Source: a virus. Taken from it: a stretch of 27,802 nucleotides of DNA. Under the pieces are notes generated by a model. The model did no database searches, was not told where the DNA came from, and was given only the letters and a program-made list of their open reading frames with translations. Made by a program: the position numbers and the translations under genes. Of this stretch, positions 7,039 through 9,339 are shown piece by piece; the stretch's first letter is position 1, and every line of letters starts with the position of its first letter. The stretch covers positions 1 through 27,802 of IMG/VR virus record IMGVR_UViG_3300034060_000730; one strand, given 5' to 3'.

Positions 7039-7833
7039 TTATGCCGAAGCCAAAGACGATGGCACATAAGCGCAGTCGTCGATACCTTCAGGCAGCGAAT
7101 CAACACAACGCCACGCCACAGGGCCACCGGCCTGAATCGCAGACTGATCGGCCAACGACCACGGGTCAGCAGAAATACCAAACGGCAGAACCGCAGGGGC
7201 AGGTCCAGTGGGGTGACCAACAGGATCGCCAAAACCGGGAACCCAAGACGGGAACTCGGCTCCCGGCATAGATGGGAAGAAGCAAGGGTTGTTCTGAGCG
7301 TAACCAGAAAGCGTTAGCTCAAGCGCACCAATCGTGTAGTTCAACCCGCCAGAAAGTTCCCAGTTCTTAGTGAGCGGAAAAACCCAATGAATATACTGCG
7401 ACGAGTTCACACCATCAACAGCACACGAGTTGCCTGCGTTCTGTGACCACAGTTCCAGAAGCTTCGACTCAGTACAAGGATCGTCAAGCGAGTTACGCAT
7501 CGCAGCACCGAGGAAGTTACCGTCGCCGTCTGAAAGGAGCGTTGCGTTGATAAGCATTTCGATCATCGGTAGCGGGATGCCGCAAAGCTTCAACTCAACC
7601 TCAAAACCTTTGAGCCGGTTGCAGTCCTTATTGCGGATACAGATTTCGCCGTTCCCGTTCTTGGTAGTGATGTCCTCGCCGTCCTCAACGTCCGGGGACA
7701 TGTTCAACTCCATGAACCCTGAAGAAAGCACACGGCTGTTCGGGGTTAGGGGGTCAAGCACAACATCGTTTACGTCCTGTCGGGTGACACGGATCGCACA
7801 TGCCTTGATTGACTTTGGGCAACAAATCGTCAT
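7039..7833 (-). CDS. Major tail protein paralogue 2 (tail tube)
   Basis: The 264-residue product's pattern matches actinophage major tail proteins: an opening CCPKSIKACAIRVTRQD, SSGFMELNMSPDVEDGE, then NGNGEICIRNKDCNRLKGFE with VELKLCG, LLELWSQNAGNSC, YIHWVFPLT, and GALELTLSGYAQNNPCFFP. Proteins of this type form the hexameric rings of the tail tube. It has the same motif order as the 305-residue protein at 8422-9339, so the two are divergent paralogues. ATG 7833 has a GGAGGG site upstream. It is separated from the connector and tail chaperone genes by an accessory cassette, an unusual gene order. Confidence 0.82.
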   Translation of the reverse strand: MTICCPKSIKACAIRVTRQDVNDVVLDPLTPNSRVLSSGFMELNMSPDVEDGEDITTKNGNGEICIRNKDCNRLKGFEVELKLCGIPLPMIEMLINATLLSDGDGNFLGAAMRNSLDDPCTESKLLELWSQNAGNSCAVDGVNSSQYIHWVFPLTKNWELSGGLNYTIGALELTLSGYAQNNPCFFPSMPGAEFPSWVPGFGDPVGHPTGPAPAVLPFGISADPWSLADQSAIQAGGPVAWRCVDSLPEGIDDCAYVPSSLASA

Positions 7834-7897
7834 TACTGACCCTCCATATGGATCGACTTGGTTGGACTCTAACCCAGCATAAGCCGGGCGTGAAGGA

Positions 7898-8425
7898 TTA
7901 GGCAGACAGTGTTGCTAGTAAACCCTTGCGCGCTTTGCCAGCAAGCTCAGACTTCAATGCCGCAGCTTTACGCTTAGGGTCGGCACCAACCCAGTCAAGC
8001 ACTTCCAGAACAGTCAGATCAGCGGTATCGATCTCTGCGACGGGTTCAGCCTCAACAGTGGCCTGAACAGTGGCCTCAACAACCGGAGCCTCAACCTCAA
8101 CCTCAACAACAGGTTCAGGGTTTGCAAGCGGGCGCTCTACAGGGGGAGGCGCTTGCTCGCCCATCGTGTTTCGCACGTTCCAAGGCTGGCCACCACGAGT
8201 TGTTTTCACATCGTCTCCAAACAGTAATCCGGTTTCCTCAGTTGAAATACTGAAGCCTTCAATAAACTCCGCTACCACATTGCCAACAGTATTCCCCGGC
8301 ACTTTTACAGTAGCTCTAGGAAGTCTAAACCGAACAAAGTGGCCTGTCATGTTTATTAACTTGCAATACGCCTGACCGTCCAACACTTTGACATCGGCGC
8401 GCACTGATGGAAGCTTCGCTCTCAT
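7898..8425 (-). CDS. Virion-associated protein of unknown role between the two tail-tube genes
   Basis: The product has 175 residues. ATG 8425 overlaps the stop of the upstream tail-tube gene in ATGA, so I prefer it to the start 12 bp upstream. Residues 1-85 form a probable beta domain (VKVLDGQAYCKLIN, HFVRFRLPRATVKVPGNTVG). Residues 95-135 are a Val/Glu/Pro-rich linker. Residues 137-175 (LTVLEVLDWVGADPKRKAAA, ending LLATLSA) form a short helical unit often seen at the C terminus of actinophage head or tail accessory proteins. The linker shares PEPVVEVE with the delta region of the major capsid protein. A decoration or connector role is possible. Confidence 0.65.
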   Translation of the reverse strand: MRAKLPSVRADVKVLDGQAYCKLINMTGHFVRFRLPRATVKVPGNTVGNVVAEFIEGFSISTEETGLLFGDDVKTTRGGQPWNVRNTMGEQAPPPVERPLANPEPVVEVEVEAPVVEATVQATVEAEPVAEIDTADLTVLEVLDWVGADPKRKAAALKSELAGKARKGLLATLSA

Positions 8426-9339
8426 ACCCCGACCCAATAATTAACAGCGTCAACAGGCATCGAAAACGGGGGAGGCTCAGACTTCATCATCATCACCATC
8501 GGTTCATCTTGAGGCACCGGCGAGCAATCGTCCAGCACACCCGGCAGCGAATCAACACACTTGTACGCGAGCGCGCCGCCGAGTCTGATCTGTTCCATGT
8601 CAGCCACGGTCCACGAGTCGGCCACGACACCAGCCGGTAGAACGCACGGTGTGGGACCGCCGACGTAGGGTTCAAAATCTTGATAAGACGGGAACAGCGG
8701 ACCGGGCATCGAAGGGTAAAACATTGGGTTCTTCTTCGCGTAACCAGAGAGCGACAACTCGGCAGCACCGATGTTGAAGTTCAACCCGCCTGACATCGCC
8801 CACCGATCCGTGTACGGCAGCACCCAGTGGATGTAGCCGCCGGTTGTATTCCCTGCGGGGTCGCATGTTGTAGCCGCGTTCTTTGTCCAAAGGTCAAGAA
8901 TGAACCCGACGCAAGCCCCGCCGTTCTCCATGTCGTTATTGAACGTCTGCCCCACAACACTCGTATCGCCGCAGAAGTCATCAAGCAAATTGTTTCTGGC
9001 AGAAATACCATCTAACAACTTGGTTGCAATCGTCGGCATCCCACACAGTTTCAACTCAAGATTGAAACCTTTCATCTGATCGGGTGGCCGATGAATTACA
9101 CCGATGCTATTAGCGGCAGGGTTCATCATCAGCGTCTCGTTGCCCGATTCGTAATCGGGTGAAAGGGTCAGCTCAGAAAACCCGTTCATCTGCCAACGAG
9201 TAAACGGTGTTGTAGGCGCAGGAGGAAACGGGATCAGCGGGTCACCCGACAGGTACGACCCGTAAAACAGGTCAAGCGGAGTGATGCGAATAGCAAGCGC
9301 TTTGATTGACTTGGGGCAGCAATCGAACAGGACCGCCAC
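8422..9339 (-). CDS. Major tail protein paralogue 1 (tail tube)
   Basis: The 305-residue product follows the same motif order as the 264-residue paralogue at 7039: CCPKSIKALAIRITPLD, NGFSELTLSPDYESGNE, MKGFNLELKLCGMP, LDLWTKNAATTC, GGYIHWVLPYTDRWAMSGGL, GAAELSLSGYAKKNPMFYP, and YKCVDSLPGVLDDC. It carries an extra C-terminal tail rich in Met/Pro (EPMVMMMKSEPPPFSMP). The GTG at 9339 lies just after the stop of the 411-residue gene. Both copies are intact, so the phage may build a two-component tube or use one copy for a specialised ring. Confidence 0.82.
   Translation of the reverse strand: MAVLFDCCPKSIKALAIRITPLDLFYGSYLSGDPLIPFPPAPTTPFTRWQMNGFSELTLSPDYESGNETLMMNPAANSIGVIHRPPDQMKGFNLELKLCGMPTIATKLLDGISARNNLLDDFCGDTSVVGQTFNNDMENGGACVGFILDLWTKNAATTCDPAGNTTGGYIHWVLPYTDRWAMSGGLNFNIGAAELSLSGYAKKNPMFYPSMPGPLFPSYQDFEPYVGGPTPCVLPAGVVADSWTVADMEQIRLGGALAYKCVDSLPGVLDDCSPVPQDEPMVMMMKSEPPPFSMPVDAVNYWVGV

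Follow-up and report, generated by a model that had tools for sequence, protein, structure and literature searches.

Gene content of the locus

We analyzed a viral DNA stretch of 27,802 nucleotides (hereafter the window; positions 1 to 27,802 of the IMG/VR record IMGVR_UViG_3300034060_000730), which carries two major tail protein (MTP) genes, termed here MTP-A and MTP-B. Read in the sense of transcription, the minus strand encodes the portal, two head genes, the major capsid protein, three glycosyltransferase-like genes, p411, MTP-B, p179 and MTP-A, after which several small genes precede a set of connector genes on the same strand, that of the head-tail adaptor p375 among them. The features considered are as follows:

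21253-23145, minus strand: portal gene
12864-14879, minus strand: major capsid protein (MCP), phrog_777 (E 6.6e-75), the reference for codon usage
10653-12780, minus strand: three adjacent glycosyltransferase-like genes (PF13692, PF02709 and PF04488), between capsid and tail genes
9342-10577, minus strand: p411, phrog_779, a family annotated without a function, directly upstream of MTP-B
8422-9339, minus strand: MTP-B, 305 aa, GTG start, phrog_792 (E 1.1e-12), diverged paralogue and probable low-copy ring protein
7898-8437, minus strand: p179, 175-179 aa, between MTP-B and MTP-A
7039-7833, minus strand: MTP-A, 264 aa, ATG start, phrog_792 (E 1e-24), probable bulk tail-tube protein
6960-6987, minus strand: terminator-like hairpin, a 12-bp stem with a T run behind it, some 50 nt past the MTP-A stop
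6470-6859, plus strand: 129-aa open reading frame between MTP-A and p111 but in the opposite orientation, with no family match
4742-5275, minus strand: HNH endonuclease-like gene
3274-4401, minus strand: head-tail adaptor p375, phrog_783 (E 3.8e-50)
2340-2732, minus strand: tail completion or Neck1-type connector, phrog_5 (E 2.5e-13)

The likely start of p179 is the ATG at 8425 (giving 7898-8425), which overlaps the MTP-B stop as ATGA, and profile searches of PHROGs and Pfam gave no family match for this protein. Relatives of p411 lie between the capsid and MTP genes in the phages DSL-LC01 and Zooman. The hairpin was found in a consensus scan, and it should be considered that over the whole region such sites are no commoner than in shuffled sequences. 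The glycosyltransferase-like trio, possibly a virion glycosylation cassette, is kept in close relatives, and the loci of DSL-LC01 and Zooman showed no match to it. The match to the HNH endonuclease-like gene is split, with insertions, in two relatives (L005 and L006). Tape-measure matches in the relatives fall in open frames of about 2200 aa, fitting a siphovirus, and a contractile tail was rejected because searches of five relatives, which may be fragments, gave no match to a sheath profile.

Relationship and fold of the two tail proteins

MTP-A and MTP-B are paralogues. Over 276 aa they share 43% identity and 59% similarity (BLASTP E 7e-66), and their local alignment score of 541 is far above those of 500 shuffles (mean 37, maximum 65). 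The phrog_792 family ("major tail protein") is the sole PHROG family matched by either protein up to E 0.1. Three motifs occur in the same order in both, as originally predicted, namely CCPKSIKA, then VELKLCG in MTP-A or LELKLCG in MTP-B, and LSGYA. With purifying selection on both genes (see below), the view that these are two intact paralogues holds. The original prediction also described the pair as differing widely in sequence, which overstates the case at this identity over nearly the full length, and as lying in tandem, which is wrong if unqualified, as a gene of 175-179 aa separates them. Divergent C-terminal tails had been described as well; the C-termini are homologous to about A258/B276, and only the last ~28 residues of MTP-B are extra. 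The extra stretch occurs in most members, but the orthologue in contig L009 lacks most of it.

We considered three other accounts of the pair and rejected each. Membership of a capsid decoration family, which would have spoken against two tail proteins, was found for neither protein among PHROGs and Pfam profiles up to E 0.1. One gene with a frameshift-extended variant is contradicted by the two separate open reading frames and the terminator-like hairpin after MTP-A; inspection of the sequence showed no slippery stretch at the MTP-A end. A recent redundant duplicate is contradicted by the dN/dS values given below and by the 43% identity.

Both proteins are cysteine-containing, with 11 cysteines in MTP-A (4.2%) and nine in MTP-B, six of which are invariant between the two; the adaptor p375 has 17, and p178 (2734-3270) has 13 (7.3%). 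The distant single MTPs examined contain 0-1.5% cysteine, as compared with the 4.2% of MTP-A. Tails with disulfide links are known from Agrobacterium phage Milano (PMC10811340).

The fold of MTP-A is predicted to be that of a tail tube protein: its AlphaFold2 model (pLDDT 75.5) matches the tube proteins of siphophages JBD30, SPR, Chi and YSD1 (VIA Z 8.9-9.8), with which Foldseek agrees. The MTP-B model is weak (pLDDT 55.6), although it shows the strands in the same order and Foldseek places tube proteins at the top of its matches. A profile of MTP-A and MTP-B gave no sequence match when compared with solved structures.

Divergence of the beta2-beta3 loop

In the MTP-A model, a long loop (51-72) lies between strands 34-50 and 73-84, which a helix follows, and residues 51-72 are, according to this model, at the position of the beta2-beta3 loop as described in PMC8718954. 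In most systems, no other contact between rings is as large as the one made by that loop; T5 and SPP1 tubes fail to form or grow when it is deleted, and in lambda point mutations suffice (PMC8718954). The JBD30 tube shows the hinge loop of the upper ring docked onto the lower one (PMC11445458).

The loop motif GE/DxITxKN...G..C...K is kept in MTP-A and lost in MTP-B. Identity between the two proteins is 15% in the loop, as compared with 56-75% in the main barrel strands, which are well conserved, and the block 51-74 shows the largest drop in the whole protein. To relate this to other family members, we took the 49 positions that are conserved across MTP-A, the downstream or single copies most closely related to it, and 60 distant single-copy MTPs. 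Both MTP-B and the upstream copies of the relatives are changed at six of these positions, and five of the six fall in residues 51-74, a segment that holds eight of the 49 (hypergeometric p 1.7e-4) but that was chosen after viewing the alignment. The value was hence corrected by scanning all windows, giving p 0.0016 for changes in both; taken singly, the upstream copies give 0.011 and MTP-B gives 0.015. Other loops of MTP-B have diverged too (10% identity to MTP-A in residues 97-123), and the loop signal may in part reflect the general relaxation of a minor copy.

Expression signals

MTP-A is preceded by a strong Shine-Dalgarno sequence, GGAGG at 6 nt before its ATG, and all nine versions of the gene combine an ATG with a strong site (-9.8 to -10.7 kcal/mol, 6 nt). 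MTP-B starts with GTG and has no well-placed Shine-Dalgarno in any of its eight versions, the window included. This GTG lies just behind p411 in every version, 2 nt after the p411 stop in the window, and p411, MTP-B and p179 look translationally coupled. Codon usage relative to MCP is closest for MTP-A among the other genes (0.618), with MTP-B being average (0.530). As start signals, codon usage and the terminator-like hairpin all point the same way, we infer from these signals that far more MTP-A than MTP-B is made. Low expression of the extra copy is no general rule, however, since two of the four upstream copies in relatives (L030 and L033) have a strong Shine-Dalgarno, and in the phrog_2645 phages discussed below most second copies have sites no weaker than those of the first copies.

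Distribution, selection and duplication history

In an annotated phage collection, MTP-A matches 724 records and MTP-B 76, with one place in each record. In IMG/VR, eight contigs carry both genes, at identities of 88-100% for MTP-A and 74-100% for MTP-B; two more contain MTP-A only, but these contigs start close upstream of it. The order p411, MTP-B, p179, MTP-A is kept in the related contigs, MTP-B being present in eight of the eight closely related contigs spanning the region and p179 lying between the two MTP copies in all close relatives that span it. Genes resembling p179 also precede the downstream or single MTP copy in several distant relatives. In contig L009, the block from the adaptor to p100 lies on the opposite strand, upstream of the block from capsid to MTP, reflecting either a rearranged tail gene order or a misassembled contig.

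Both genes are maintained under purifying selection. Among the eight related contigs spanning the region, dN/dS is 0.03-0.12 for MTP-A and 0.06-0.12 for MTP-B, and MTP-B changes at about twice the rate of MTP-A. Distant contigs are mixed, with two MTP copies in four (L029, L030, L031 and L033) and one copy in three that reach up to p411 (the contigs of L032, L035 and L036). Two upstream copies (L029:4137-5096 and L033:742-1629) end in C-terminal extensions, DAFSEDFCGAG and DSFSDDFAGAG, respectively, that are absent from other copies. A scan of bacterial genomes with the MTP alignment found no relative.

A phylogeny had been suggested as a means of dating the duplication. The tree was run, yet it cannot separate one duplication from several: in topology tests, neither a clade of MTP-B with the upstream copies of the relatives (AU p 0.44) nor a grouping of MTP-A with MTP-B (p 0.15) was rejected. 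The CC N-terminus and the cysteine-rich end are common to this clade and absent from the single MTPs of the DSL-LC01 type; because the clade shares these features, the duplication is probably younger than the split from those proteins.

Proposed roles of the two proteins

The original prediction offered a two-component tube or specialised end rings as explanations for the two genes. Of these, a specialised ring is favored over a mixed tube by the expression signals and by the loss of the loop motif, and we give about an even chance to the reading that MTP-A is the bulk tube protein and MTP-B forms a low-copy specialised ring. Under such a scheme, a long siphovirus tail tube would be built mainly from MTP-A, which would outnumber MTP-B, while MTP-B would have arisen by duplication of a tube protein and become a low-copy ring of the same fold within the virion. 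MTP-B would probably still be able to form a ring, but would not stack in the usual way on MTP-A at the side that the loop faces. It could then serve as an adaptor terminating the tube, with the tip a more probable site than the head end, since the loop that lost its motif normally reaches the next ring towards the tip. As the loop of the upper ring docks below in JBD30, the changed loop suggests that the tip-side neighbor of MTP-B is not MTP-A. The tip-end position, the simplest reading of this and one that would resemble the end-ring tube paralogues of contractile systems compared below, is the weakest step in the scheme, and the location of the MTP-B gene on the head side of MTP-A counts against it.

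The same data can be read in other ways. MTP-A and MTP-B might co-polymerise along the whole tube, with MTP-B as a surface variant as in SPP1, which we consider unlikely. The barrel strands that make the ring are kept in MTP-B and most members have the extra C-terminal stretch, but subunits that stack at any position would be expected to retain the stacking loop, which is the very block of largest divergence. The two forms in SPP1, gp17.1 and gp17.1*, are products of one gene by frameshift and have a common beta2-beta3 loop, which weakens the parallel, although the presence of two MTP forms in one SPP1 tail (Auzat 2008, as cited in PMC8718954) does offer a precedent. At the other end of the tube, MTP-B might sit next to the head, as a collar or neck ring that links the tube with the connector and is co-translated with p411. 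This agrees with its location directly behind p411, next to the capsid genes, and with the apparent coupling of p411, MTP-B and p179. We nonetheless regard it as quite unlikely, as separate genes downstream encode the adaptor and the tail-completion protein, and as the loop of a head-end ring would still be expected to dock on the MTP-A ring below and hence to be conserved.

Two further readings place MTP-B outside the tube structure or deny it a role. As an assembly factor, initiator or decoy, MTP-B would be made but not kept in the virion, and its weak translation start is compatible with, for example, a nucleating ring or a defense decoy; the DSR2 defense system senses a phage tail tube protein (PMC10981675), which lends the decoy some plausibility. 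The conserved barrel strands and the six shared cysteines fit a structural part better, and we consider such a role very unlikely. That the two proteins are redundant, with MTP-B having no distinct function, is highly improbable: the distant contigs with a single copy show that one can suffice, but the strong purifying selection on MTP-B and its presence in every closely related contig spanning the site speak against this reading.

Comparison with known systems

Single-copy phrog_792 phages, including Actinomycetia phage DSL-LC01, Microbacterium phage Zooman and many Mycobacterium and Gordonia phages, share the neighborhood of MCP, phrog_779, MTP and adaptor and have the loop motif as in MTP-A. 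They differ in having one MTP, and in those distant members that were examined both the CC N-terminus and the cysteine-rich end are missing. SPP1, like phages with extended MTPs of the TP901-1 type, resembles this virus in having two tube protein forms per phage, but here these come from two separate genes and no frameshift sign was seen at the MTP-A end. In contractile systems (T4 gp54/gp48 and Afp5/Pvc5), a diverged protein of the tube fold forms the ring adjoining the baseplate. These systems are contractile, and they are compared only for how such a ring works, with no claim of membership.

The closest parallel in organisation is found among phages with phrog_2645 tail proteins. Siphoviruses were originally taken to have usually one tube gene, which calls for qualification, as two-MTP genomes are common in phrog_2645 (243 records, 480 places). 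These phages comprise clusters DJ, EL, AM, AU and others, Rhodococcus ReqiPoco6 and Streptomyces Esketit and Scap1; DizzyRudy has three MTPs, of which gp17 and gp20 are 42% identical. For cluster DJ, two related MTP genes around one gene have been described, with 43% identity in FortCran, and the authors left open whether the two MTPs overlap or differ in function (PMC12859696; see also PMC11080557 and PMC10652937). The present virus has the same arrangement, with two intact paralogous MTP genes around a single gene of ~180 aa. Nonetheless, comparison found no homology to the phrog_2645 MTPs (hhalign probability 0.1%, for the one phrog_2645 protein compared) or to their phrog_4338-type middle gene. 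The canonical copy is first in the phrog_2645 phages and second here, and their second copies have a good Shine-Dalgarno, most being as strong as the first copies or stronger.

The pattern of divergence is shared. In residues 46-71 of seven phrog_2645 genomes, second copies are 32% identical to first copies, as compared with 68% between first copies and single-copy proteins, and segments outside 46-71 show a much smaller drop; this enrichment in the loop is strong as an identity drop and weak as a count test (p 0.02-0.18). The loop was placed here by motif position rather than by a model, because DizzyRudy gp17 had no sequence match of note among solved structures.

Two-MTP phages were thus already known, with hundreds sequenced, and we found no reason for the two genes in the literature searched; what is new is the same organisation in an unrelated tail protein family and the shared pattern of divergence. 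A broader possibility, more doubtful than probable, is that tube genes were duplicated independently in unrelated siphovirus families, and that each extra copy lost the ring-stacking loop motif and kept the barrel. If true, "cap" tube proteins that start or end the tube would form a general class so far unrecognised in siphophages. In both of these unrelated families the extra copy is most diverged at the ring-stacking loop, which suggests that one copy may build the tube and the other a special ring, an idea open to testing in cultured phages such as Gordonia cluster DJ.
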